NCBI GenBank assembly: GCA_023300375.1
Contig: JALZWO010000203.1
Coordinates: 1 to 37,822, forward strand
DNA length: 37,822 nt
Direction: 5' to 3'
Source: Granulosicoccus sp.
GTDB lineage: Bacteria > Pseudomonadota > Gammaproteobacteria > Granulosicoccales > Granulosicoccaceae
In this document: positions 23,206 to 37,205 of the stretch, one piece after another
Layout: every line of letters begins with the position of its first letter
How positions within the stretch are numbered: the stretch's first letter is position 1
Made by a program: the position numbers and the translations under genes
Notes under the pieces: generated by a model
The model's database searches: none
The model's input: the letters and a program-made list of their open reading frames with translations, nothing else
What the model was told of the DNA's origin: nothing

Positions 23206-24178
23206 GATCAACCAGCTCTTCACCGAATACGCGCTGGTACAGTTCGGCAATCAGTGTGCGTTCTGCGGGGTCGCACTTGTTAACGAAAGCCAGCTCTAAC
23301 GACAAGCCAGGCTCTTTGAAGAAGGTAAGATTTTGCGTCCAGGTGATAACAGTACGCGGGCTCATAACAGTGGCTAAATCGCCATTGCGAAAGGCCACAC
23401 GCGTAAGACCTGCCAGCGATACCATTTTCTCGACAAGATCCCTTCCCTCCTCGTTTTGAAGATGTGGCGCTTTGGCCAACACAACATCAACTTCTTTTTC
23501 GGCGGGTAGGTAATTGAGGATAGTGGTGATAGACCACCTGTCCATTTGCGCTTGGTTGATCTGTTGAGTACCGTGATACAGCCCCGTAGTGTCGCCCAAA
23601 CCCACTGTATTAGCCGTCGCAAAAAAACGAAACGCCGGATGAGGTCGGATGACTCTGCTTTGATCTAGCAGTGTGAGTTGTCCTGTTGATTCAAGCACCC
23701 TCTGGATAACAAACATTACATCGGGTCGGCCAGCGTCATATTCATCGAATACTAAGGCCACGTTGCGTTGATAGGCCCAAGGCAGAATACCGTCCTGAAA
23801 CTCGGTTACCTGCTTGCCTTCTTTAAGCACAATAGCGTCCTTGCCAATCAGATCGATGCGGCTAACATGACTGTCAAGGTTGATACGCAAGCAAGGCCAA
23901 TTCAAACGCGCCGCAACTTGCTCAATGTGAGTTGATTTACCCGTACCGTGAAAACCTGAAATCAGTACGCGCCAATCGTTACTGAAGCCCGCGAGTATGG
24001 CGAGCGTGGTTCGGCGGTCAAACAGGTAGCTGCTGTCCAGATCAGGTACTTTGTCTGTGCGCTGGGAGTAGGCCGGAACCTGCAAGTCAATATCGAGACC
24101 GAACACCTCTCTGACAGATACAGTGGTGTCAGGCATCAGATCGTTATCTGGTGCGCGGTTAGAGTGTGAATCGAGCAT
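23195..24178 (-). CDS. cobS: Cobaltochelatase subunit CobS (AAA+ ATPase, MoxR-like)
   Basis: 327 residues from the ATG at 24178; a TTG three codons earlier is also open. N-terminal [27 protein letters not shown] is the CobS-specific leader. Walker A is [11 protein letters not shown] (~74-84), Walker [11 protein letters not shown] (~142-151), sensor 1 [20 protein letters not shown] (~185-204). The ring ATPase works with CobT as chaperone for CobN-type cobaltochelatase. Residues typical of active AAA+ proteins are intact. The gene overlaps cobT and they are one transcription unit; upstream is a REP element and the EF-G gene on the same strand. Confidence 0.92.
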
Positions 24179-24271
24179 GATTGACAAAATTTAGTGGCGT
24201 AAGTGCCAGTGTATACGTTGAAAACCTGACGGTCGTTGTTAAACGAAGGAAAAGTTGTCTATAGCTGATCT

Positions 24272-24337
24272 GTCATTCCCGCGAAGGCAGGAATCTATTT
24301 CTGGATGCATATGGATTCCCGCCTTCGCGGGAATGAC
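24272..24337. repeat. REP/BIME-like palindrome, two inverted arms
   Basis: 24272-24295 (GTCATTCCCGCGAAGGCAGG and four more bases) pairs with 24314-24337 as a 24-bp inverted repeat with one mismatch; the loop includes ATGCAT. Typical extragenic palindrome of Gammaproteobacteria. It lies between EF-G and cobS, which are on the same strand, so it may separate them transcriptionally. Confidence 0.85.
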
Positions 24338-24397
24338 GCGCTTTCGCGAGAAAGACACGTCTTCGCAGGAGAGACACTCATTCGCAGAAATAACATA
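24322..24397. repeat. Four decaying 19-bp tandem units derived from the REP arm
   Basis: Units 24322-24340, 24341-24359, 24360-24378 and 24379-24397 keep a TTCGC core at the same place in an exact 19-bp period. Neighbouring units match at 15, 13 and 11 of 19 positions, falling with distance from the REP palindrome, whose right arm is part of unit 1. Confidence 0.6.
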
Positions 24398-24472
24398 TCA
24401 GGGCCTGATACGCCCAATAAATCAGGTATACCAGACCGTCTCAGCTTAAAGCGAACTAATGCGTAACCGACA

Positions 24473-26557
24473 TTACTTAGCCGCTTTACGCTCTTGAGCT
24501 TCTTTGATTACAACGTCTGCAACGTTCTTCGGACACTGACTGTAGTGGCTGAATTCCATTGAGAACTGGCCACGGCCAGAAGTCATTGTGCGTAGATCGC
24601 CAATGTAGCCAAACATCTCGGACAACGGCACGTCAGCCTTGATGCGAACACCAGTTGGGCCTGCTTCCTGTCCTGCAATCATGCCACGGCGACGGTTAAG
24701 GTCACCGATAACATCACCGACGTGATCGTCAGGTGTGAACACATCAACCTTCATGACAGGCTCGATGATCTGCGGGCTTGCTTTAGGAATTGACTGTCGG
24801 TAAGCACCTTTAGCGGCAATCTCAAACGCAAGCGCTGAGGAGTCAACTGCGTGGAAAGCACCATCCGTTAGCACAACGCGGAAGTCGAGCAGTGGGTATC
24901 CAGCGAGAACACCTTCAACCATAGACGTCTTGAAGCCTTTCTCTACAGCTGGCCAGAATTCGCGAGGAACGTTACCACCAGTAACCTTCGACTCGAATGT
25001 GAAACCAGTACCAGATTCACCAGGCTCGATGGTGTAATCGATTCGACCGTACTGACCAGAACCACCAGATTGCTTCTTGTGAGTGTAAGTATCTTCGATA
25101 GCAGCAGTGATGGTTTCGCGGTAAGCCACCTGCGGCTTGCCTACTTCAACTTCAACACCGTGTGTACGCTTGAGGATATCGATCTTGATATCCAAGTGCA
25201 GCTCACCCATACCCATAAGGATGGTTTCGCCACTCTCTTCGTCAGTCATTACGCGGAAAGAAGGATCCTCTGCAACCATCTTGCCGATAGCTACGCCCAG
25301 CTTCTCACTACCTGCTTTGTCTTTAGGAGACACAGCGATTGAGATGACCGGATCAGGAAAGACCATAGGCTCGAGTGTTGCTGGATGCTTTGGATCAGCC
25401 AATGTGTGTCCAGTCTGGACATTCTTCATACCTAGGACAGCAACGATGTCGCCGGCCTGTGCAGAATCTAGCTCTTGGCGTGAATCAGCGTGCATCTCAA
25501 CGATACGGCCGATACGCTCTGTCTTCCCTGTGAAAGTGTTCAGTACCGTGTCGCCCTTGGCAATCTTGCCAGAGTAGATACGGATAAACGTTAATGCGCC
25601 ATAACGGTCGTCCATGATTTTGAACGCCAGTGCACGCAGTGGCTTGTTAGGGTCAACGATAGCGCGTTCGCCAGTCTCGTTACCTTCCAAATCAACTTCA
25701 GGCTGTGGCACCACTTCAGTAGGACTTGGCAGATAAGACACAACACCGTCGAGCATGGGCTGAATGCCTTTGTTCTTGAACGCTGAACCACAGAACGTGG
25801 GGAACCAAACCAACTCGATAGTACCTTTACGAATGCATTTCTGCAGTGTTTCGATATCCGGCTGCTCACCCTCGAAATAACGCTCCATAGCGGCGTCATC
25901 CATCTCCAGAGCTGACTCAACTAGCTCTTCACGCCATTTAGCAACATCTTCGACCATGTCAGCAGGTACGTCTTCGATGCTGTAGTTCTCAGGATTTCCT
26001 GTCTCGTCCCAGATCCATGCTTTTTCAGTCAAGAGATCGACTATGCCGACAAAGTTCTCTTCCGTACCGATTGGCAGAACCATAACCAGCGCACGCGCAG
26101 CCAGAACTTTCTTGACTTGGTCTACAACGCGGAAAAAGTCAGCACCCATACGATCGAGTTTGTTGACGAAGATTACGCGTGCAACTTCAGATTCATTCGC
26201 ATAGCGCCAGTTAGTCTCTGACTGGGGCTCAACACCACCAGAACCACAGAAAACGCCTACACCACCGTCCAATACTTTTAATGAACGATAAACTTCGATT
26301 GTGAAGTCAACGTGTCCCGGGGTGTCAATGATATTGAAACGATGACTGTCCCACTCACAGCTGGTTGCAGCGGACTGGATCGTGATACCACGCTCCTGCT
26401 CCTGTTCCATGAAATCGGTTGTGGCTTCACCATCATGAACCTCACCGGACTTATGAATTTTGCCCGTAAGTTTTAGGATTCGCTCTGTTGTGGTGGTCTT
26501 GCCCGCATCAACGTGGGCGAAAATGCCTATGTTGCGGTAGTTGGAAAGGTCTGTCAT
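24473..26557 (-). CDS. Elongation factor G 2 (EF-G paralogue)
   Basis: 694 residues, complete. GTPase motifs: [11 protein letters not shown] (G1, ~14-24), RGITI (G2), DTPGHVDF (G3, ~81-88) and [10 protein letters not shown] (G4, ~134). Sequence such as [32 protein letters not shown] and the C-terminal [12 protein letters not shown] matches the second EF-G type of Vibrio, Shewanella and Pseudomonas, not the str-operon EF-G. It is not beside rpsL/rpsG/tuf, as expected for the paralogue. It would catalyse ribosomal translocation, or a specialised version such as recycling or low-growth translation. It diverges from the ATP-grasp cluster across ~590 bp. A fusidic-acid-type or toxin-tolerant EF-G function is possible but not shown. 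Confidence 0.93.
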
Positions 26558-27150
26558 GGGTTAATGCTCAAACTCTGTGAATAGGGGCCAAGGGCGTCTT
26601 GCGAAAGTTGTCGAAAAACGCTCTGACCATAAAGCCAAAAAATAGGTGAATAATGGAGACTGCATCTAAAAATCAAATAAAAACGGTGAGCAGCTCGGAG
26701 ATGCATTGTGGAAACAAGGCATACTGGCGCTCGGTAAACCCGCAATTCTACCCAATTTTGGCGCTCGGCGGTCGCTAACAATGTTCCTTTCGTTAACGAA
26801 CGGGCGGAACTGATTGATGTTTTTCTGTTTGAGCTTTCAAAATTGCACAAAAACAATCAGTTGAATGGCCCAACAGCCCAGCTACAATACAACCAGAGAG
26901 TTACATTCTGTACAGCCAGACATATAAGTACTGAACCTTACCGGCTCCAGCAACTCTACAACCCAAGTAATTCAATCACGTCAAACTCCCGACGAGTTCT
27001 TAGAACTTGTTCCGGAATCCCAGATAATGACAATATCGCAAGAGTATTGCTACCTAAATGCTAGCGCAAGAGCTGGTTTGCAAGGTAAAATAATAACGTC
27101 ATTCTGACCAGTTTGATCTGTTACACATCGAGGATAGGTGGTAGTTCATC
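26558..27150. promoter_or_regulatory. Divergent intergenic region between EF-G 2 and the ATP-grasp cluster, 593 bp
   Basis: No credible gene; the short open frames here have no homology-like features or ribosome binding sites. It holds a direct repeat TGGCGCTCGG (26725-26734 and 26759-26768), a 13-bp palindrome AGTTCTTAGAACT (26995-27007) followed by TTCCGGAA (27011-27018). These last two sit ~140 bp before the ligase gene and could be regulator sites for it. Confidence 0.35.
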
Positions 27151-28035
27151 ATGCACATTACGATCATCATGGTATTGACCTATATACTGTGCTGCGTCAG
27201 GATCTCCACTGCGCCATGGCGCTACTGGCAGCTCAACGCACACTATTTTTCAAAAGAACAGGGCGTGTTCTCTAAAATGTCCATCGACGAGCTAATACCT
27301 GACCGATGGAGGTTAGCTCAAGCCTTCGATTCCGAAACCTATACCCCAGATCAGTTCCCTGTCTTTTTGAAGCCAGAGTGGGGACAAAATGCGCACGGCA
27401 TACATCGGGCTGACGATTTAGCTCAGCTTGTAAAATTGCGCGCTAACCTTGAGTGCCAGCCACAACGCTATTTAGTGCAGCAAGCTGCTCCAGGACAGCG
27501 TGAATTCGAGCTGTTCAGCATTGATGAAGACCGCGAAGATGGAAAACACGACGTATTCACCGTCACGGAAGCGATCAACAACTCCGAAATCTACCCCATC
27601 AACAGCAAGTACAACCGATCAACTCGCTATTCGGACATCACCGGTGAGTTTGACGCTGAGCAACGCGTTGCAATGTCTGGATACTTGTCTCAAATAGGCA
27701 AATTCGGCATCAGTCGCATGGCGGTTCGCGCCGAAAGCACCGAAGCGTTGGTCAATGGTGACTTCCACATTATTGAAATAAACCTGTTCCTACCCATGCC
27801 GATAAACCTACTCGACGGCGATTACACGTGGCAGCAAAAGTGGGCTTTTATCCAGCCAGCGATGATGAGTCTTGCTAAATCAACCAAATTAATCAAACCT
27901 GTTGAAAAACGGCAGCCTATATTTATGCGCATGATGATGTACGGACGCGACAAGCCCAATACAGAAAAATGCGCTACCAATAACAACCAAGGAACTAAAT
28001 CACACAAAATTGGCGAGCAATCCAGCCAATCGTGA
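27151..28035 (+). CDS. ATP-grasp domain protein, putative carboxylate-amine ligase (gene 1 of cluster)
   Basis: 294 residues. The ATP-grasp nucleotide fold is visible: FPVFLKPEWGQNAHGIHRADDLAQLV (~70-95, with the ATP-binding Lys and glycine-bearing loop), YLVQQAAPGQREFELFSI (~110-127, hinge strand), and FHIIEINLFLPMPINLL (~206-222, the metal-binding E-x-N). The substrate domains are unlike those of D-Ala-D-Ala ligase or RimK, so the acceptor is unknown. The N-terminal ~20 residues are hydrophobic (TIIMVLTYILCCV), a possible membrane anchor, unless the real start is the ATG at 27277. The C-terminus is polar and variable. It overlaps the next gene by 26 bp if that gene starts at its TTG. Family membership is firm; reaction is inferred as ATP-driven amide formation. 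Confidence 0.75.
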   Translation: MHITIIMVLTYILCCVRISTAPWRYWQLNAHYFSKEQGVFSKMSIDELIPDRWRLAQAFDSETYTPDQFPVFLKPEWGQNAHGIHRADDLAQLVKLRANLECQPQRYLVQQAAPGQREFELFSIDEDREDGKHDVFTVTEAINNSEIYPINSKYNRSTRYSDITGEFDAEQRVAMSGYLSQIGKFGISRMAVRAESTEALVNGDFHIIEINLFLPMPINLLDGDYTWQQKWAFIQPAMMSLAKSTKLIKPVEKRQPIFMRMMMYGRDKPNTEKCATNNNQGTKSHKIGEQSSQS

Positions 28036-28954
28036 AATCAACAACGTGAAGAAATTGAAGACTCTGATCTACGCATGGATCAGCGCCAAATACATGGCTG
28101 GCTGCAGTAATTACAACACGCTAGAAGTCAGAAAAGCCAGTCGCTCAAAGCGACAGGCGCGTGAAATGTTTGCAAAGCACAATGTCCCACATGCTAAAGG
28201 CACGCTGTTTTTCAATCCACTGACAGCGCATCGCTTCGCAAAGGAACATGGATTCCCTTTGTGTATTAAGCCAAACGTTAGCGGTTTTTCACGGGGCAGC
28301 CACTTCCCTATCACCAACTTCAAAGAGCTCTGGAAGGCGGCGTTATGGGTGAAAGTCTGGTGGCCTAGCAGTGTTGTTGAGCAATACCTACTCGGATCCA
28401 ACTATCGTGTGTTAGCTACGGATGATGAGCTGGTCTCCGTGATTCGTCGTTATCCGCCGTTTGTTGACGGCAACGGACGCGATACTATCGCGACCTTAAT
28501 AGACACTGAGAATGCGCAAAGGCAAGCAATGAACTTGCACCCCACGATCTACCCCATAGCCAAGTCTGCGCAAACAATTTCCTATCTGGCAAGCTGTGGA
28601 AAAACGCTTGAGTCGGTACCAGCTGACGGAGAGCGTGTACACACGTTCAACCGAATAGCGCTAGCACCCGGCGGCATTGTTGAAGTTATTGACAAAGAGA
28701 CTATTCCAGAAGCTAATCGCGAATTATTTTTGCAGGTCATGAAATCGTTCGACGCAAAGCTTTTTGGCATTGATGTCATATTTGAACAGGGCATAGAAAA
28801 GGACTATCGAGAGCAAAAATGTATCTTTCTCGAAGTAAATTCACGCCCGTACACACGCATGCACAGCTTCCCCCGTTTCGGGAAAGTAGAAAATCTGGAG
28901 GCTTTCTATGAGAAAATGGATGCCCTGCAGGTTGCAGAATCTGACACGTTCTAG
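28010..28954 (+). CDS. Free-standing ATP-grasp ligase like the cyanophycin-synthetase ATP-grasp half (gene 2 of cluster)
   Basis: 314 residues from a TTG at 28010; a GTG at 28046, 10 bp after the upstream stop, is equally possible. The order of motifs follows the ATP-grasp part of CphA: ASRSKRQAREMFAKHNVPHAKG (~43-64), FPLCIKPNVSGFSRGSH (~82-98), SSVVEQYLLGSNYRVLATDDELVSVIRRYPPFVDGNG split over ~120-156, SVPADGERVHTFNRIALAPGG, and GIDVIFEQ...IFLEVNSRPYTRMH (~262-290) with metal-binding Glu and Asn. The Mur-ligase half of CphA is missing and no such gene is next door. CphA-type domains activate a carboxylate as acyl phosphate and join an amino acid; this one probably does the same on a small substrate. 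Confidence 0.82.
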   Translation: MASNPANREINNVKKLKTLIYAWISAKYMAGCSNYNTLEVRKASRSKRQAREMFAKHNVPHAKGTLFFNPLTAHRFAKEHGFPLCIKPNVSGFSRGSHFPITNFKELWKAALWVKVWWPSSVVEQYLLGSNYRVLATDDELVSVIRRYPPFVDGNGRDTIATLIDTENAQRQAMNLHPTIYPIAKSAQTISYLASCGKTLESVPADGERVHTFNRIALAPGGIVEVIDKETIPEANRELFLQVMKSFDAKLFGIDVIFEQGIEKDYREQKCIFLEVNSRPYTRMHSFPRFGKVENLEAFYEKMDALQVAESDTF

Positions 28955-28985
28955 TTTTTTGCCATCTAGCGCGGTCACGTAAATT

Positions 28986-30233
28986 TTGCCTACCCCTTCG
29001 CGCCCGTTGTACTTTTACCAATTCCTTGGCGCCCATTCGCTTCTTATTGGGCTTCTCCCGTTCTTTCTACCTGTTTACTTGTGGAAGCTAGGGCTTAGTC
29101 TGGCAGGATTGAGCCTGCTTATCGGTGTTTCTGGGATCAGTTTTGCGCTAGCTCTTTATGCTTGGCAACGCTTGTCCACACGCTGGCAACTAAAGCGACT
29201 CGTGGCATTCACCTTTGTACTTGAAACCACGCTGGTTTTTTTCGTCGGCGTGTTCACACTGATTCCAGGCGTTGGTTTATTTGCAACGCCATTGGAAGGT
29301 ATAGGGGCAGCCAGTGTATTCGGCTTGGTTATGACGGCTAGTGTTATTGGCCTATTCAACGGCTTATACAACGCGTTTTTCTGGACGACACAACGCACCC
29401 TTTTTTTACAGCAGTTGTCCCCCATCGACAATGGCCAGAGTAACACCGGCAGGCAGTACGGGAACTTTCAGATCTTTGTCACACTGTTCCTCAAACTCGG
29501 CATTTTACTGGGTGGATGGCTACTGGATACTGGAGGTTTTGTGACGTTACTCGCCATCAGTGCAGGCGTTAGTGCTGTATCGAACTGGTGGCTAGCAAAG
29601 TCTGAACACGGCAAGATGGCACTTCACAAGCTGCCTTCAAACATTGGACTACTAGAGAGCCTACGTTACAAAGACGAACAAGGCTCCCGCCCCACGTTCG
29701 CGATTGATGGCGTCTTTCTTTACCTTGATAGCCACTTCTGGACCTTGTCTTTATTCATGCTGGTTAAGGAAGATTTTTCGATGCTGGGAATAGCCGTTGT
29801 GCTGTTAGGCATTGGCTTTGGCGTGTTGTTTTTTCTGATTAAAAACGGCATTGATCGCATTGACGTTGAGCGCGTGTTCAAAGCAGCTGTAGTCTTGTAC
29901 AGCCTATCTTGGCTTCTGCGCTTTACGCTGGATGACACCTTAAGCGGCAATGCATTACTCATTAGCCTTCTCGTGGTTACCTTCTTTTCATCGTTTTTCC
30001 GTCTGGCTTTCAACAAACGTTTTTTTGATGTTGCGCGCACCGAAGGTGCTGTGCAGTACCTGCTCTATAAAAGCTTTAGCTCACAATTTATACTGGGGTT
30101 GTTTTTTATTATCCTAGGTGGCTTGCTGTTCTTTGTTGACACCGAACCCATGCGTATTCTGCAGAGCGTGTATCTGGGTGCTGCATTGCTATCATTGCTT
30201 TACTTGCTTTACCAAGACAAAAGCAAGGGCTAG
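28986..30233 (+). CDS. MFS transporter (gene 3 of ATP-grasp cluster)
   Basis: 415 residues, about eleven or twelve hydrophobic segments (FLGAHSLLIGLLPFFLPVYLWKLG at ~13-36, then regular helices to LYLGAALLSLLYLLY near the end). The pattern fits MFS; the classic motif A is weak, as in several export subfamilies. It begins at a TTG 31 bp after the second ligase stop and ends 63 bp before amn, so it belongs to the same unit. The natural reading is that it exports, or imports, the compound handled by the two ligases. I recognise no substrate-specific motif. Confidence 0.78.
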   Translation: MPTPSRPLYFYQFLGAHSLLIGLLPFFLPVYLWKLGLSLAGLSLLIGVSGISFALALYAWQRLSTRWQLKRLVAFTFVLETTLVFFVGVFTLIPGVGLFATPLEGIGAASVFGLVMTASVIGLFNGLYNAFFWTTQRTLFLQQLSPIDNGQSNTGRQYGNFQIFVTLFLKLGILLGGWLLDTGGFVTLLAISAGVSAVSNWWLAKSEHGKMALHKLPSNIGLLESLRYKDEQGSRPTFAIDGVFLYLDSHFWTLSLFMLVKEDFSMLGIAVVLLGIGFGVLFFLIKNGIDRIDVERVFKAAVVLYSLSWLLRFTLDDTLSGNALLISLLVVTFFSSFFRLAFNKRFFDVARTEGAVQYLLYKSFSSQFILGLFFIILGGLLFFVDTEPMRILQSVYLGAALLSLLYLLYQDKSKG

Positions 30234-30296
30234 CCAAAGAGGTTTACAACGTGATAGAGTCGGCTCGAATTCGCAACGAATTCACAAGGTACCGAA

Positions 30297-31775
30297 TTGA
30301 ATCAGGAAAAGATAACACCGCCGCCGCAGAACGCAAAAACGTTTAACAATGCGGGGGACGCCGTCGAAGAACTCATCCGGCTATACGACATTAGCACGCA
30401 CTTTTTGCGCAACGCCTTCACGCAGTACCTGGAAGGTAAACTCCCCGCTCAAAAACATCGTGCTTATTATCCTGAAATACGCTTTAGCACCAGCACATAT
30501 GCGCGAGTGGACTCACGCTTGTCGTTCGGACATGTTGATCAACCTGGACTTTACAGCACCACGGTATCCCAACCTGCACTGTTCCGAGGGTATTTAACAC
30601 ACCAGCTAAAACTACTCATAGAAAATCATAACGAGCCTGTTGAGATACGCTTTTCAGATATCCCCATACCTCTGCATTTTGCATTGGAGGCAGGCTCTCC
30701 AGTGGCGGTTAAGCAGCCGCAAGTCACCAATAGCTTGTTGCGCGATATGTTTGATGTCCCCGTATTAGCGCATGTTAACGACTACATTGTTAATGGCACT
30801 CATGAGACCAAACCAGGAGGCGCCAGTCCGCTAGCGCCCTTCACCGCACAACGTGTTGATTACTCACTACACCGGCTGGTGCACTACTCAGCCACTGCAC
30901 CCGAACACTTTCAGAACTATGTGTTGTTTACCAACTACCAGTTCTACATCGATGAATTTTGCCGACTCGCACGCGACATGATGGCCTCTGGTGATAGTCG
31001 CTATGAGTCTTTTGTAGAACCGGGTAACGTCATCACACACTCTGGAGAGTCTGGCCCCAGCTCAGGTACAGCGCCAGCACGCCTGCCGCAAATGCCAAGT
31101 TACCATCTTAAAACAGCTAAGGGCCGCGGCATCACAATGGTCAATATTGGTGTCGGGCCTTCAAACGCAAAAACCATTACCGACCACATCGCGGTATTGC
31201 GCCCACACGCATGGCTCATGCTTGGGCACTGCGCAGGTCTTAGAAACACACAAGCACTCGGTGATTATGTGTTGGCACATGCCTACGTTCGAGAGGACAA
31301 AGTATTGGATGCCGACTTGCCTGTATGGGTACCTATTCCAGCGCTAGCCGAGGTGCAACAAGCACTCGAAAGTGCCGTGGCTGAAGTTACCGGCCTTCAA
31401 GGTTTTGAGCTTAAGCGCATCATGCGCACCGGCACGGTAGCCTCCATTGATAACCGCAACTGGGAGCTACAGGACCAGAAAGAACCCGTACTGCGGTTAT
31501 CGCAATCTCGTGCAATAGCTCTGGATATGGAGTCGGCAACCATTGCTGCCAATGGCTTCAGACTGCGCGTGCCCTATGGCACTCTGCTTTGCGTGTCTGA
31601 TAAGCCGCTGCAGGGTGAACTCAAACTACCCGGCATGGCCTCTGATTTCTATCAAAAACAAGTGGCGCAGCATCTTGAAATTGGCATGCTCGCTATGCAG
31701 AAAATGAGCGATATGAAAGCTGAAAAACTGCATTCGAGAAAACTACGCAGTTTTTCAGAGACCGCATTTCAGTAG
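30297..31775 (+). CDS. amn: AMP nucleosidase
   Basis: 492 residues, close to 484 in E. coli. The N-terminal Amn-specific domain includes YYPEIRFSTSTYARVDSRLSFGHVDQPG split over ~57-85 and RFSDIPIPLHFALE. The C-terminal phosphorylase-like domain has GHCAGLRNTQALGDYVLAHAYVREDKVLD (from ~308) and ALDMESATIAANGFRLRVPYGTLLCVSDKP (from ~394), the substrate-binding Met-Glu and the Asp. It hydrolyses AMP to adenine and ribose 5-phosphate, lowering AMP and feeding purine salvage. Start is a TTG at 30297 with AAGG 9 bases upstream. It follows the MFS gene by 63 bp and may be co-transcribed. A perfect 12-bp inverted repeat, 31720-31758, lies within its last codons. Confidence 0.93.
   Translation: MNQEKITPPPQNAKTFNNAGDAVEELIRLYDISTHFLRNAFTQYLEGKLPAQKHRAYYPEIRFSTSTYARVDSRLSFGHVDQPGLYSTTVSQPALFRGYLTHQLKLLIENHNEPVEIRFSDIPIPLHFALEAGSPVAVKQPQVTNSLLRDMFDVPVLAHVNDYIVNGTHETKPGGASPLAPFTAQRVDYSLHRLVHYSATAPEHFQNYVLFTNYQFYIDEFCRLARDMMASGDSRYESFVEPGNVITHSGESGPSSGTAPARLPQMPSYHLKTAKGRGITMVNIGVGPSNAKTITDHIAVLRPHAWLMLGHCAGLRNTQALGDYVLAHAYVREDKVLDADLPVWVPIPALAEVQQALESAVAEVTGLQGFELKRIMRTGTVASIDNRNWELQDQKEPVLRLSQSRAIALDMESATIAANGFRLRVPYGTLLCVSDKPLQGELKLPGMASDFYQKQVAQHLEIGMLAMQKMSDMKAEKLHSRKLRSFSETAFQ
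31720..31758 (+). terminator. Perfect 12-bp hairpin with T-run inside the amn 3' end
   Basis: CTGAAAAACTGC (31720-31731) and GCAGTTTTTCAG (31747-31758) are exact reverse complements around a 15-nt loop. The 3' arm contains TTTTT. It precedes the amn stop by ~15 bp at a convergent junction, so it may be a coding-embedded terminator or mRNA stabiliser. Confidence 0.45.
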
Positions 31776-31821
31776 AGTGCGTTGAGTTGGTTACGGCCTC
31801 ACATCACATCGCCGTTTTTCG

Positions 31822-33018
31822 TCAATCATGTTGTAGAAGACGTTTGGTCAGTGCCAAGTAAGCCACGTCAACAAAGGATGCCCCTAGGCGCAAACAGCGT
31901 TCTGGGGACCATCCGACATCGGGTCGAGGGCGGTTTGCAGTGTCTTTGAAGGGCATCTCCAAAGTCAGCGCCAGTGCGCCAAACTGATGCGCAAGCTGGT
32001 TACTACAAATAGTCAGGTTCGCATTGCCGGGCTTATTGATCGGGTAACCGTGCTTATCTTGAAAATCAGGATTGATTGCACCCCACGTGTGCTTCAAGTT
32101 AACCAGCTCTGCATTTCGCTCAGGCGTCCAATCTTTAACACCTTCGGTACCGGCTATAAAGTTATACGGCAAGGCCTCATCACCGTGCACATCAAGAGCC
32201 AGATCAATACCCGTGCTGCGCATACGCTCAAGTACAGAATACACCTCGGGGCTGCGTTCCATGCTGGGCTCTGCCCACTCACGGTTCAGGTTGACACCCA
32301 ATGCGTTGGTACGTAAGTGCCCTAGATACGACCCATCAGGGTTCATGTTAGGTACAACGTGTATGTCGGCTAACTCCCGCAAAGCACAGCTCGTTGCATC
32401 GTCTTCATCGAGTAATCTGTCTAACCAACCTTCCATAAACCATTCAGCCATAGATTCGCCAGGGTGCTGACGAGCGATGACCCACAGTTGTGGTCTTTTG
32501 CCACTATTGTTGGCGTCTGGCTCTTCTGAAAGTGGCAACACATTAAGATAATCAATGGGCCGGCGTTGATATGTTTGGGCTAGCACTTCATGGCGCACAC
32601 AGAGCGACGATGCTGCGGCCGCGATTAAATCAGCATGCTGCTCCATGGAATAAGGTGCAAAGTACGCAAACCATAGTTGATCATTGTCAGTTTCTACCGA
32701 CCAACGTAATTCGCCATTCTTGTATTCAGAGGCTACGCGCTGCCACGTTTGACGATCGCTACTGCAAACAACGTGGTAGTCCACCCACCCATCTGGGTAA
32801 GTCGTAGCCCCCGCGTTTTCAATAATGAATGTGGTGTTTTTGCCACGAAGGCCAGACGCACTGAAATGAAACCATTGAAGGAAATCAGAGTTTGCATCTT
32901 TACGAATGTTTAGCCGGACGCCAGCTGGATTGGATGCATCAACAAGCTCAATGTTTGCGCTGTCGTGCTGGGTGTTTACGTTGATGTCAGAAGATGTCAC
33001 TTTTTCAGAGTATTCCAT
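31822..33018 (-). CDS. M14-family zinc carboxypeptidase, cytosolic carboxypeptidase (CCP/Nna1-like) type
   Basis: 398 residues from the ATG at 33018; the frame opens 16 codons earlier at 33066, and neither start has a good ribosome binding site. An N-terminal beta-sandwich (residues ~10-150 with WFHFSASGLRGK) precedes the catalytic domain, the architecture of M14D cytosolic carboxypeptidases. Zinc ligands are in ARQHPGESMAEW (HxxE, ~185-188) and DVHGDEALPYNF (His at ~278). VVPNMNPDGSYLGHLRTNALGVNLNREW holds the substrate-binding Asn-Arg, and TLEMPFKD (Glu at ~354) is the catalytic Glu. No signal peptide, so it acts in the cytosol, trimming C-terminal residues from a peptide or protein. Separated from the upstream fasciclin gene by an intrinsic terminator, hence an independent unit. 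Confidence 0.9.
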   Translation of the reverse strand: MEYSEKVTSSDINVNTQHDSANIELVDASNPAGVRLNIRKDANSDFLQWFHFSASGLRGKNTTFIIENAGATTYPDGWVDYHVVCSSDRQTWQRVASEYKNGELRWSVETDNDQLWFAYFAPYSMEQHADLIAAAASSLCVRHEVLAQTYQRRPIDYLNVLPLSEEPDANNSGKRPQLWVIARQHPGESMAEWFMEGWLDRLLDEDDATSCALRELADIHVVPNMNPDGSYLGHLRTNALGVNLNREWAEPSMERSPEVYSVLERMRSTGIDLALDVHGDEALPYNFIAGTEGVKDWTPERNAELVNLKHTWGAINPDFQDKHGYPINKPGNANLTICSNQLAHQFGALALTLEMPFKDTANRPRPDVGWSPERCLRLGASFVDVAYLALTKRLLQHD

Positions 33019-33109
33019 GATGGATAAAGCCAACAATGCATCAATCTGTTGGCCAGAGTTATACATCGTAAAGAAAGTACATCAAGAGGCCAAATTACTA
33101 CAAGCCCAA

Positions 33110-33146
33110 ACAAAAAAGGCTGCCCTTGAACTCAAGGGCAGCCTTT
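33110..33146 (-). terminator. Strong intrinsic terminator of the fasciclin lipoprotein gene
   Basis: 33115-33128 and 33133-33146 are perfect 14-bp arms around a 4-nt loop (core GGCTGCCCTTG). Reading the minus strand, the stem ends in TTTTTTG, an ideal rho-independent terminator, 90 bp after the lipoprotein stop. Confidence 0.92.
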
Positions 33147-33236
33147 GTATTACTGCACTAACCGCTTAATGATATTTTGAGTCACGTTACTCACGTGACC
33201 CAACGGCGGTTGATTCTGTCTAAAAACCTTCCTTAA

Positions 33237-34436
33237 TTAAGGAACCAGAATTGCGTCAGCTGCGTAGATGAAACCACCCTGAGGAGAAGTACCTAACTGA
33301 GTGATTGTTGCTCCACCGACGGTAATAGTAGTTCCGTCGTTAGTGATTTGGTAAGTCTGTCCACCGTTCACAAGGATTGAACCACCGTCTGGGAAGCCTG
33401 TAAGATCAAATGTGCGCGTAGAGCCAGTGTCAGTGTCAACGTGTGACTGCAAAAATGCGAAGTCTATCGTTGTGCCATCAGTAGCAGCATCGGCCGGTAT
33501 AAAGAACGCCCAAAGGTCAGTTGTGTTAGTTGAACCATCGTCGACGTTAGTACCAGTGTACTGCGCACTCAGTTGAGCAGCAAATGCGTCAGCAACTGTA
33601 TTTCCAGCACCCACGTGATCACCGGCAGGAGGAGTAGTAGTGCCACCACCATCAGTAGTTCCACCGTCAGTGGTTCCACCGTCAGTAGTTCCACCAGCTT
33701 CAACAGGCGCTTCAGGAGCAACTAAGACAGAAGCAACTGAATACAGGTTACCAGTAGCCGATTCACTAACGACTGCTAGATCTACAGCATTGGTGCCAGA
33801 GTCGACAGCAGCCGCTGTTTCACTAGTACCTGCTTGAAACGTCAGTTGTGCAGCAGTGCCATCATCAACTAGTAGAGTGTCGGTAGCAGGTGTAGTGTCT
33901 GTGATATCAACAACACTTCCAATGGCGTGGTACTGAAGAGTACGTGTAACTAACTCACCTTCGTTGGCTAGAAGATCTTCAGCCGAATCGGAACCGTCAG
34001 TAGCTGCAACCAATGCATCGAACGCAGCATTGTTAGGAGCAATTAACGTGATAGGTGCAGCGTCGTCATCCGCAGCGTTTGCGATCGCAGGATTCGCATC
34101 AAGCGCCGCAAGCAAAGTAGTGTGATCAGTAGATGATGCAACGAAGTCGTATGCAGAAACTTCAGGAACAGTTGCTTCAGCTGTGAGCTCAACAGCAGCG
34201 CCGCCGCCGTCTGTAGTGGCTCCGTCTGTAGTACCGCCGTCTGTAGTAGCGCCATCTGTAGTGCTACCGGCAGTGGTAGTGCCGTCTGTAGTAGCACCAG
34301 CAGTAGTAGCGCCATCTGTGGTAGTACCGGCAGTAGTTCCACCAGCAACTGGATCGTCATCGTCGTCGTCACTTGAACAACCGACCATCGCGACGCTGAG
34401 AGCAATAATGCTCAGTGCAAAGTACTTCTTAATCAT
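33237..34436 (-). CDS. Secreted lipoprotein with two fasciclin (FAS1)-like domains and TTDG repeats
   Basis: 399 residues. The signal peptide ends in the lipobox MVGC (Cys20); Ser at +2 points to the outer membrane. A run of six Asp follows, then a linker of TTDG/TTAG units (residues ~34-79). FAS1 domain 1 spans ~85-243 (YDFVASSTDHTTLLAAL, ITLIAPNNAAFDAL, TLQYHAIG, LYSVASVLVAP). A second TTDGG linker (~250-265) leads to a FAS1-like domain 2 (AGNTVADAFAAQL, WAFFIPADAAT, GGFIYAADAILVP) in which the H-box is eroded. FAS1 proteins mediate adhesion or cell-surface contacts. Ribosome binding site GAGG at proper distance before the ATG. Acidic composition and repeats suit life in salty water. Strong terminator downstream; monocistronic. 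Confidence 0.85.
   Translation of the reverse strand: MIKKYFALSIIALSVAMVGCSSDDDDDDPVAGGTTAGTTTDGATTAGATTDGTTTAGSTTDGATTDGGTTDGATTDGGGAAVELTAEATVPEVSAYDFVASSTDHTTLLAALDANPAIANAADDDAAPITLIAPNNAAFDALVAATDGSDSAEDLLANEGELVTRTLQYHAIGSVVDITDTTPATDTLLVDDGTAAQLTFQAGTSETAAAVDSGTNAVDLAVVSESATGNLYSVASVLVAPEAPVEAGGTTDGGTTDGGTTDGGGTTTPPAGDHVGAGNTVADAFAAQLSAQYTGTNVDDGSTNTTDLWAFFIPADAATDGTTIDFAFLQSHVDTDTGSTRTFDLTGFPDGGSILVNGGQTYQITNDGTTITVGGATITQLGTSPQGGFIYAADAILVP
34200..34337 (-). repeat. Tandem short repeats encoding the TTDG/TTAG linker
   Basis: Repeating 12-bp units coding for Thr-Thr-Asp-Gly or Thr-Thr-Ala-Gly, ~46 codons. A shorter copy, 33642-33689, encodes the second linker. In-frame unit number can vary by slippage. 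Confidence 0.75.
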
Positions 34437-35252
34437 GAGGTATCCTCTACTTGATTATCAAAAAAATTAAAGTGCTCGTTCCGCAAAGCAAATAACTTGC
34501 CGAATACGAATTATTTTCCAAAAACTATAACAAACTCACAACATTGGACTAAAGAAATCAGTTTGGTACAACGATTCACACAAACTGCCGCCTCTCAGAC
34601 TCCGTGGCACAAGTATAGACGAGTCATACAAAGTGCTAACTCTCTTGCAAAAGAATTTAACATGTGATCAAACATGCATTTTGCCGAAATGGCAAATGCA
34701 ATTCTAGCGCCTGAATTGAAAAGTGTAGGCAATTCACAGTTACAAGCAAACAAGGTTAGTTGGTTTTTAAATAATTTCCAGCCAAACTGTCGCTTACAAA
34801 AAAAATTTCCTTCAAGCAAATAGCTGATTTGCGTGGGTTTTTAAGATTGATCACCTCACCTAGCGCAAGAGTATGTGCTTAGTAAGTACCGTTAAAAAGC
34901 CGGAGTTAACTACGCGGATTATTGCTTTGCCTGAGCAGCTTCAATCGTTTGAACCTGATTAAAATGCACAACAGTTCACTTTTCCTGCGCTAAGTTCTGC
35001 GTTGAGCATTTGAAGTTTCACAATTAACAACCCATTTGGCTAGTGTTCGGATAGGTTCTGAACAGTGGCCTTGCCGCAGCGGCTTGATTTGATAGAGTGA
35101 TGGGGTGGGATATCGGAAAAAAAGCGGGTCTTCCTTGACCCTGCGTGGCTCCGTGCCTCAATACCACTTGGAGGAGGAATACCGAAAGTCACCACACTTT
35201 CGATGAACTGATCATACTGAAGAACCTCCCGTTTGCATGCGACGCCGCCACA
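34437..35252. other. AT-rich intergenic region of ~800 bp between fasciclin and tmcA genes
   Basis: No convincing gene is seen on either strand; open frames here lack ribosome binding sites and domain patterns. It includes a hairpin at 34675-34700 (TGCATTTTGCC with GGCAAATGCA, one bulged T, 5-nt loop) preceded by CATGT/ACATG arms (34661-34676). Its right end may include an upstream extension of tmcA (frame open from GTG 35145), and a strong GGAGGAGG at 35170-35177 without a matching start codon. Promoters for both divergent genes must lie here. Confidence 0.4.
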
Positions 35253-37205
35253 ATGGATTTTAGCCATAAATTCACAAATCACGGTGATTTGCTAAATACT
35301 ATTGATCATTGGATGGGCAATCGCAGGGAAAATTCCCACAGGTTTTTGCTTATCGTGACAACGCTGACTCCACTTTGGCTTGAAAAATTGGCACATCTGG
35401 GCAATTTTGACTACGTAAGCCATGAATCTGGCGCTGACAGATCCGATCGTATCGCCGCCTTACTGGGCTCCGAACGCAGCAGCGCAGTTGTCACGCTAGC
35501 TCCAAAGCCAGATTTAGGACTAATTGCAGCTGTAGCCGGCACGATCAAGGCCGGTGGCCTGATGGTTCTAGGCATTAACCCGTCACGTTCAAGTCACTCC
35601 TTACGGCGACTACTCAGCCTAGCTGAACAGTTAGCCACGGAGCACTCTGCGTGTGTGGCACAAGTTATTGCTGCTCCAGACCCCCTATCGACTGTAGGAA
35701 CTAGCTTCTCAGCATCACGACCAATACTTGACGAGGGCTACAACTCAACAGCCTCTAAGCCAGCACTTGAACCCAGACTCATCAATCCAGACGCCTTAGC
35801 AGAGCAGAATGCGTTACTCAGCTCAGCAATCAAGCATGTTGGCTCTCGTCATAATAGCTGCGTGGCTATCACCGGCACTCGCGGACGCGGAAAATCTACA
35901 CTCTTAGCACGACTCGCAAAGCATTTCGCTAACAACAACACGCCAATCGCAGTAACAACGCAAAACAAATCGGCACTGGGCAGTTGGGCTCAACACGCGC
36001 CCCTTGCAGGGCAATGGTTTATCGCCCCTGAAAAAGCCGCAACACAAAGTGGCACACTGCTGTTTGTGGATGAAGCCGCCAATTTCCCATTAGCAACCAT
36101 CCAACGGTTTCTCGACAATTTCAGTCACGTGATATTGGCTTCCACCATAGATGGCTATGAGTCGGGGGGACGCGCCCTGGATATTCGTTTATTGAGCGAT
36201 CAATCGCAATCAAATAGTGATTTCTTACAACTTGAACCACAAGAGCCTTGGCGCTGGTCAGCCCATGATCCTCTCGAAACCCTAATATCCAGACTATTAC
36301 TCAATCAAACTATCGAGCCCTCAAAAATTTGCGGTGAGCCCCCTAAAAGTGCTGAATTCCAGATCAAACGCATCTCTCAACAAGAACTTGCAGGCAACGA
36401 AGCGCTACTGGCTTCCGTCTACTCTTTACTCAAGGCCACGCACTACCAAACATCAACCAAAGATCTCGAACATTTACTGGATGCCACCAGCTTACAAGTA
36501 TGGGCACAGATGCAGTTCACCGGAGGATGTCAGCGAGCAGTCGCCGTGTTGTTATTGGAAATCGAAGGAGAGATCGAAAATAAAGACGATTTACACGAAG
36601 ACATTGTGAGTAAAACACGCCGTCTACCAAACCAGTTACTACCCCAGCTGCTTGCACAGAGCGCAAACACGCCAATGGCACTGCATAAACGCTACGGTCG
36701 AGTATTGCGTATTGCTGTGGCACCAGAGCACAGGCGATGTCATTTGGCTACAGAGCTGCTCCGTTCGGTTATCGCCGAAGCTCAACTGGATGCCTTTGGT
36801 GCAAGCTTTGCCTCAGATGAAAGATCAAACGCTTTTTGGCAAGCCTGCGGCTTTCAGACTTTTCACAGAGGCTTTAAAGATAACCCACGCACCGGCCAAC
36901 GTGCTATCGCTGTGCTGCGCAGCTTTGAAGCCACTACAAAAGCAGTAATGGATACAGCGGTCAGAATTTACAAAGACAACGAAAACAGTGACAAACACGA
37001 TGGCCAGGCTATTTCTTCTTTTGACGATATAGCCCTGCTGCAACGCTTTGTGCTTGGCCAGCGCAGCATGCACGACTCTCGAAGCGCCATCAGGCGTCTG
37101 CCTGTAGTTAACACCTTGCCGCTAGAAAGAACTAGCTCACAAAGTAGAAAGCAACATGAACTTCTCCTGCGTAAGTGCGTAGAAAAAGCGATGAAGAGGA
37201 AATAG
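35253..37205 (+). CDS. tmcA: tRNA(Met) cytidine acetyltransferase TmcA
   Basis: 650 residues from the ATG at 35253; a GTG at 35145 would add 36 residues without similarity to the usual N-terminus. Domains: N-terminal DUF1726-like part (FLLIVTTLTPLWLEKL), helicase-like ATPase with Walker A AITGTRGRGKST (~206-217), Walker B LLFVDEAANFPL, and motif STIDGYESGGRALDIRL; then a GNAT acetyltransferase with RVLRIAVAPEHRRCHLATELL (~480-500, acetyl-CoA loop) and GASFASDERSNAFWQACGF. The enzyme makes N4-acetylcytidine at the wobble position of elongator tRNA-Met using ATP and acetyl-CoA, preventing misreading of AUA. Length is near E. coli TmcA (671). Followed after 115 bp by a secreted-protein gene. Confidence 0.92.
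   Translation: MDFSHKFTNHGDLLNTIDHWMGNRRENSHRFLLIVTTLTPLWLEKLAHLGNFDYVSHESGADRSDRIAALLGSERSSAVVTLAPKPDLGLIAAVAGTIKAGGLMVLGINPSRSSHSLRRLLSLAEQLATEHSACVAQVIAAPDPLSTVGTSFSASRPILDEGYNSTASKPALEPRLINPDALAEQNALLSSAIKHVGSRHNSCVAITGTRGRGKSTLLARLAKHFANNNTPIAVTTQNKSALGSWAQHAPLAGQWFIAPEKAATQSGTLLFVDEAANFPLATIQRFLDNFSHVILASTIDGYESGGRALDIRLLSDQSQSNSDFLQLEPQEPWRWSAHDPLETLISRLLLNQTIEPSKICGEPPKSAEFQIKRISQQELAGNEALLASVYSLLKATHYQTSTKDLEHLLDATSLQVWAQMQFTGGCQRAVAVLLLEIEGEIENKDDLHEDIVSKTRRLPNQLLPQLLAQSANTPMALHKRYGRVLRIAVAPEHRRCHLATELLRSVIAEAQLDAFGASFASDERSNAFWQACGFQTFHRGFKDNPRTGQRAIAVLRSFEATTKAVMDTAVRIYKDNENSDKHDGQAISSFDDIALLQRFVLGQRSMHDSRSAIRRLPVVNTLPLERTSSQSRKQHELLLRKCVEKAMKRK

Follow-up and report, generated by a model that had tools for sequence, protein, structure and literature searches.

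A conserved gene trio of two dissimilar ATP-grasp ligases and an MFS transporter in Granulosicoccus and distant bacteria, possibly for an exported amide-linked metabolite

Do two dissimilar ATP-grasp ligase genes, a transporter gene and an AMP nucleosidase gene that stand side by side form a single system and, if so, what might it make? The question is raised by a stretch of 37,822 nucleotides (hereafter, the window) that corresponds to contig C203 (JALZWO010000203.1) in a 4.58-Mb draft genome of Granulosicoccus. In the list of its open reading frames (ORFs), four genes follow one another on the same strand: LIG1 and LIG2, which encode the ligases, MFS, which encodes the transporter, and AMN, which encodes the nucleosidase. 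An earlier reading of the window (the original prediction) had described a compact cluster of exactly these genes, and all four are indeed present. The observation is real and conserved; the set in question comprises three genes, not four, and is found more widely than in one genus.

Within the family Granulosicoccaceae, the adjacency of LIG1, LIG2 and MFS (the trio) proves little, since most of the gene order between EF-G and tmcA is retained there. Searches of 57 relatives for the three genes found LIG1 and MFS in 29 each and LIG2 in 31; two of the LIG2 matches (G045 and G050) are remote (23-28%), lie inside long frames and come from outside the family, and the remaining 29 are in the same genomes as the other two genes. 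A pattern-limited LIG1 scan of 84,980 species genomes yielded 167 relatives, and the best 80 of these, which were kept, include members of the Granulosicoccaceae, Colwellia, Psychromonas, Amphritea, Neptunomonas, SAR324 and the Desulfobacterales, together with symbionts (as judged from the record titles) of sponges, bryozoans and Osedax. With six more from whole genomes, and with three repeats (of L118, L159 and L175) excluded, these provide 86 distinct loci: 30 from the Granulosicoccaceae (29 placed by title, and L195 placed by the family that its genome has in common with the L118 genome) and 56 from elsewhere. LIG1 is followed by a same-strand LIG2 in 80 of the 81 loci with at least 1 kb of downstream sequence (29/29 in the family and 51/52 outside it), and by MFS in 73 of the 76 with at least 2 kb (25/26 and 48/50, respectively). 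Conserved pairing of the ligases with the transporter across genomes was the test that the original prediction had itself proposed, and it is borne out by these counts. Moreover, among 369 evenly sampled Gammaproteobacteria genomes, LIG1 and LIG2 occur in an identical set of 11 and are adjacent in every one, and their pairwise distances outside the family are correlated (r = 0.85 for 39 sequences, a value reached by 0 of 2000 permutations). The identity of the third gene product as an MFS protein is indicated by PF07690, which is matched by 17 of 19 members of this transporter family at E ≤ 0.001 and somewhat more weakly by the protein of the window (E 0.0017). The trio is rare overall, LIG1 being found in only 2 of 398 genomes sampled by phylum; LIG1 gave no match to 72,556 plasmid records, and plasmid carriage was rejected. 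That LIG1, LIG2 and MFS constitute one conserved unit in distant bacteria is, therefore, strongly supported.

AMN lies outside this unit. Its identity is unambiguous (739.7 bits for NF006142, with a cut-off of 307, and 684.8 for TIGR01717, with a cut-off of 364.7), and it is found near LIG1 in 22 of the 76 loci with at least 2 kb downstream: 22/26 in the Granulosicoccaceae, and 0/50 elsewhere. The frequency within the family might suggest a role in the pathway, such as the recycling of AMP released by the ligases, but the absence from all other loci contradicts membership, and the gene order around AMN is conserved generally in the family, where the EF-G, CobS, CobT and tmcA genes largely hold their places just as AMN does. 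Furthermore, ATP-grasp ligases as a rule give ADP, not AMP. In the family member G027 (L092), AMN is not in the neighbourhood of the trio. We, therefore, rejected it as a pathway member, a role that we consider highly improbable; of the two suggestions made originally, namely nucleotide recycling or a chance presence, what survives is that AMN is a syntenic neighbour.

Table 1. Positions and assignments of the four same-strand genes in the window
Gene	Position	Strand	Description
LIG1	27151-28035	+	294 amino acids, ATG start; short ATP-grasp protein (Ddl/LysX-like fold) with a hydrophobic N-terminal helix
LIG2	28046-28954	+	Stand-alone CphA/GshAB-type ATP-grasp domain; GTG start inferred from homology
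MFS	28986-30233	+	MFS-family transporter; third gene of the trio
AMN	30297-31775	+	AMP nucleosidase (NF006142, TIGR01717)

The genes of the trio are closely spaced (Table 1). The mechanically called ORF of LIG2 begins at a TTG codon (28010; 314 amino acids), but in most relatives the homology sets in at residue 12-13, so the start is likely to be the GTG at 28046, which is 10 bp past the stop codon of LIG1. Of the two arrangements first envisaged for the ligase genes, they probably abut in the window, where overlap is improbable; a 4-bp overlap is, nevertheless, present in 17 of the 26 family loci having both genes. The gap between the LIG2 stop codon and MFS is 31 bp, exactly as originally given.

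What, then, might the unit do? We give roughly an even chance to the proposal that the trio is a self-contained operon for making and exporting a small amide-linked (peptide-like) metabolite, with a membrane protein of four transmembrane segments (4-TM protein) as a partner. The proposal draws on gene content, order and conservation, on predicted folds and on co-occurrence, and supposes that the genes are transcribed together, that the ligases are active on substrates of the kind described below, and that transport is outward. The original prediction had seen in two ligases plus a transporter the layout of pathways to amide-linked metabolites; the unit itself has held up well, whereas the small exported amide is our inference. 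LIG2 would probably activate a carboxylate with ATP and couple it to an amine, like the homologous domain of cyanophycin synthetase (CphA) and GshAB: enzymes of this group form an acyl phosphate and then an amide bond, and LIG2 is likely to act in the same way. LIG1, which is probably held at the membrane via its N-terminal helix, could perform a second coupling or prepare a substrate; the MFS protein would, in the simplest view, export the product, and the 4-TM protein may work with all three. In some lineages, the operon may also encode its own amine supply, with a cupin resembling cysteine dioxygenase (CDO) and a decarboxylase turning cysteine into hypotaurine.

LIG2 had been said to resemble only the ATP-grasp half of cyanophycin synthetase, and this is precisely what is found: its ORF residues 43-295 match positions 210-461 of the 862 in TIGR02068 (E 2.8e-38, 131.5 bits). 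The homology to the ATP-grasp (G) domain is seen additionally in a profile match to 7wac (E 4e-33) and with Foldseek. Unlike the complete enzyme, however, LIG2 comprises only some 300 residues (302-314), leaves the first 209 model positions unmatched, has no Mur-ligase half, the match stopping at position 461, and falls well short of the 850 bits set as the cut-off for the equivalog. A profile search of the PDB gives CphA1, CphA2 and GshAB as its nearest solved relatives, and with the AlphaFold2 model of LIG2 (predicted local distance difference test score, pLDDT, 90.1; 62 sequences) Foldseek places CphA2 and CphA1 first (7ta5, E 2e-20, template modelling score 0.75 over the query), CphA and GshAB being the closest structures. 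LIG2 belongs to the same ATP-grasp subgroup as the synthetase domain of GshAB (GshF; 3ln6, profile E 6e-23), but it matches PRK02471 at positions 492-743 of 756 only and lacks a fused GshA module. Lys75, Asp243, Glu263 and Asn265, all of catalytic type, are invariant in 62/62 sequences, as is Cys20. LIG2 thus represents a ligase domain of the cyanophycin synthetase type that is retained as a separate gene, without the Mur half.

LIG1, by contrast, had been left as an unassigned ATP-grasp protein; its model has this fold and points to a Ddl/LysX-like protein, although the only Pfam match, to PF07478, is below threshold (22.7 bits against a gathering score of 24; 16.9 for the Amphritea relative). 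With the AlphaFold2 model (pLDDT 87.7; 64 sequences), D-Ala-D-Ala ligase (Ddl) is the top match in Foldseek (E 5.5e-8), whereas VIA-align gives Z-scores of 15.4 for LysX/ArgX, 14.6 for synapsin and 13.8 for Ddl; as judged from the model, these scores are too close for a choice. LIG1 shares the ATP-grasp fold and an E-x-N motif with Ddl, LysX/ArgX/RimK and synapsin, but its identity to them is 7-18% in the listed rows and it differs in the single hydrophobic helix at its start (residues 2-17 in the model), where 55 of the 57 sequences (out of 64) that cover this region have a mean hydropathy of 1.6 or more. Lys74, Glu118, Glu120, Arg189, Glu209 and Asn211 are invariant in 64/64 sequences, and Cys15 is present in 63/64; of the Asp...Glu-x-Asn metal-binding set of Ddl, only Glu209 and Asn211 are retained in an alignment of the motif by eye. 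A profile comparison of LIG1 with LIG2 gave no match (probability 1%), and by sequence the two represent unlike ATP-grasp families. Given that LysX/ArgX are the best VIA-align matches of LIG1 and that RimK is close (Z 13-15), the ligases could conceivably act in the manner of LysX/ArgX and RimK, attaching amino acids to a carrier that is a protein or peptide, with the transporter being incidental. Yet the scores of synapsin and Ddl are hardly lower, no LysW-like carrier was recognised among those recurring neighbours that reach 80 amino acids (shorter genes were sought solely in the gap upstream of LIG1), the two ligase genes overlap in many family loci, as described above, and MFS is almost as constant as LIG2; we consider a carrier quite unlikely.

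Further indications come from the genes that recur near the trio. The ORFs of 56 loci (L126-L179, L100 and L123; 909 ORFs) were clustered, although not every cluster was annotated; the counts below are for the 56 non-family loci and cover genes no more than 5 kb from LIG1. The 4-TM protein is encoded in 40 of these, in every case on the strand of LIG1, a YHS-domain protein (NF041384) in 34 (28 on the same strand), a DinB-family protein in 20 and a TANGO2/NRDE protein in 14; a pyridoxal phosphate (PLP)-dependent decarboxylase similar to GADL1 and CSAD is present in six (L148, L161, L166, L173, L197 and L199), and the CDO-like cupin in the first five of these. In the 30 family loci, all six gene types are absent from the 5 kb on either side of LIG1. 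The 4-TM protein is, nonetheless, encoded in 27 of the 29 trio genomes among the 57 relatives (not in G009 and G025), as compared with 2 of the 28 others (G017 and G035), giving Fisher p values, both inflated by relatedness, of 1.1e-11 overall and 0.001 within the family (27/29 versus 2/7). In the family, its gene is unlinked to the trio, residing on other contigs or, in G023, whose genome is a single contig, at a distance of megabases. The name DoxX, which the look of the 4-TM protein had suggested, was dropped because no Pfam or NCBIfam model supports it. The DinB-family and TANGO2/NRDE genes are often paired by the trio, downstream of MFS (L138, L143, L158 and others); in L163, the pair is upstream and on the opposite strand. 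Additionally, a fusion of a VTT domain and a flavin adenine dinucleotide (FAD)-dependent pyridine-nucleotide-disulfide oxidoreductase (~715 amino acids) is encoded beside LIG1 in L172, L178 and L171, and occupies the usual place of LIG2 in the last of these.

Two further explanations have to be weighed against these neighbours. The ligases might modify a membrane lipid or another envelope component, giving an amide-linked head group, with the MFS protein as a lipid flippase: the hydrophobic N-terminal helix of LIG1 and the co-occurring 4-TM protein would be in keeping with this, as would the sub-threshold VTT-like protein that replaces MFS in L197 and the VTT-domain oxidoreductase within 5 kb of LIG1 in 4/56 loci, adjoining it in three. 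However, the recurring neighbours examined (not every cluster being annotated) yielded no recognisable gene for an acyltransferase, a glycosyltransferase or lipid synthesis, and the CDO and decarboxylase genes suggest a soluble amine, such that a lipid product seems to us unlikely. The DinB-type neighbours raise the alternative that the product is an intracellular osmolyte or a low-molecular-weight thiol, for which the MFS protein imports a precursor. The DinB family includes thiol transferases, LIG2 matches models for N-acetylglutaminylglutamine synthetase as well as for GshAB, and several of the genera named above are presumably marine. Set against this, neither an acetyltransferase nor a GshA module or gene (glutamate-cysteine ligase) was recognised beside the trio among the recurring neighbours, and the direction of transport by the MFS protein is not readable from sequence; an osmolyte of the N-acetylglutaminylglutamine amide type was rejected for want of a recognisable acetyltransferase nearby, and we regard osmolytes and thiols in general as rather poor candidates.

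If the product is, instead, an exported amide, five operons provide a clue to one of its building blocks. They carry the CDO-like and decarboxylase genes upstream of LIG1 (in L173, the genes for the 4-TM protein, the decarboxylase and CDO precede LIG1, LIG2 and MFS, in that order). The closest solved relative of the cupin is cysteine dioxygenase, and those proteins that were aligned (four of the five) retain the Arg, H-x-H, His and S-x-H-x-Y positions of that enzyme; the L161 protein scores 24.9 bits for PF05995 (cut-off 23) and matches 4pix (E 5.5e-8), whereas the NCBIfam library put a name to none of them. The nearest solved relatives of the decarboxylase are GADL1, CSAD and GAD1, which point to an acidic-amino-acid decarboxylase but to no one substrate. 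Based on the presence of the two genes in some operons, hypotaurine or taurine is a candidate building block, a clue that comes from a minority of loci. The two gene types of taurine and hypotaurine synthesis, for CDO and cysteine sulfinate decarboxylase, are both found in the five operons and, at another site, in G082, but neither in the vicinity of LIG1 at the other loci nor in the genome of the window; to our knowledge, two ligases and an MFS transporter are no part of known taurine synthesis. PF05995 was matched in 3 of the 28 genomes searched, namely G358 (in the operon), G082 (beside a decarboxylase gene, away from the trio) and G030. A more speculative extension, which we put forward only tentatively and consider unlikely as a whole, is that the trio makes a hitherto undescribed class of exported amides containing hypotaurine or taurine (sulfinate or sulfonate 'peptides'), using two unlike ATP-grasp ligases, one of them membrane-anchored, and possibly spread by transfer among marine proteobacteria, SAR324 and animal-associated bacteria.

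A number of observations count against the proposal of an exported amide, or against parts of it. Both LIG2 and MFS are missing from L171, and MFS is missing from L140 and from L197 (G358), where the VTT-like protein takes its place (PF09335, 30.5 bits; cut-off 33.9). The trio occurs without the 4-TM protein in G191, G301 and G393, and in the window's own genome the 4-TM gene is split between reading frames (G000:C161:8139-8568, L211), which reflects either decay or a draft-assembly error. In LIG1, position 191 is Ser, Gly, Ala or Cys in 64/64 sequences where, with the motif aligned by eye, Ddl has what we take to be its metal-ligand aspartate; the activity of LIG1 is, therefore, not assured, and it may have another role. 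Lastly, PF05995 was matched in none of the 13 Granulosicoccus genomes searched (of the 27 genus members among the 57 relatives), including that of the window, in which the operonic decarboxylase also lacks a close counterpart (31% identity for the best match). The hypotaurine supply is, therefore, not general, and Granulosicoccus would need either an imported amine or a different one.

The original prediction knew of no described system with this gene set. A search of 5.39 million open-access papers, with most subscription papers outside its coverage, likewise found no description of a LIG1-LIG2-MFS operon; operons that combine ATP-grasp ligases with efflux are, however, known as a predicted kind. 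Operons of ATP-grasp peptide ligases in which cupins accompany an efflux transporter, with PLP enzymes in some versions, have been predicted previously (Iyer et al. 2010; PMC2922099). The trio operons resemble these in combining an ATP-grasp ligase, or a pair of them, with a cupin dioxygenase and an exporter, and in some cases with a PLP enzyme. The published operons, however, are built around either a paralogous methionyl-tRNA synthetase or a pairing of oxygenase and cupin, along with Rieske proteins; none of these was recognised in the trio operons, and the trio is distinguished by its stand-alone ligase of the CphA type. Thus, the kind of operon is known, whereas the trio operon family appears to be new.

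At the centre of exchange among marine microbes are exported small molecules and organosulfur amines, for which many of the genes are unknown. A trio that is kept from Granulosicoccus to the Desulfobacterota and SAR324 offers a compact and testable entry to an undescribed metabolite, with hints of a supply line from cysteine to hypotaurine.

As for the remainder of the window, the CobT, CobS and EF-G genes (names backed by Pfam) lie upstream of LIG1 on the minus strand, whereas AMN is followed by a minus-strand M14 carboxypeptidase gene, then by a gene for a fasciclin-domain protein, and then by a tmcA-like gene. An Rfam search of 24000-35200 matched no RNA element, and PADLOC matched 0/7 proteins, so a reading as anti-phage defence was rejected. 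A promoter search for LIG1 was uninformative, with three promoter-like sites in 26500-31900 as compared with 6.0 in shuffles. A short peptide gene upstream of LIG1 was considered and rejected: the stop-to-stop pieces find their matches chiefly in the nearest species, spread over several frames and either strand, a pattern that looks like conservation of the DNA and not like coding sequence. Within the gap between EF-G and LIG1, a stretch of 22-33 nt (26729-26761) is 91-100% identical in five of the seven other genomes of the genus that were compared, the rest of the gap being unmatched in those five; in the nearest species the whole gap matches at 68%, and one genome gave no match. This stretch is perhaps the promoter of the EF-G gene. 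The fasciclin-domain protein (33237-34436) has stretches of Thr/Gly/Asp repeats and a lipoprotein-like start, the latter judged by eye. Finally, the tmcA-like gene (35145-37205), whose product falls far below the cut-off of the single TmcA equivalog matched, mostly keeps its place within the family, yet the product is diverging fast, with identities of 27-43% (70% in the nearest genome) as compared with 68-93% for AMN.

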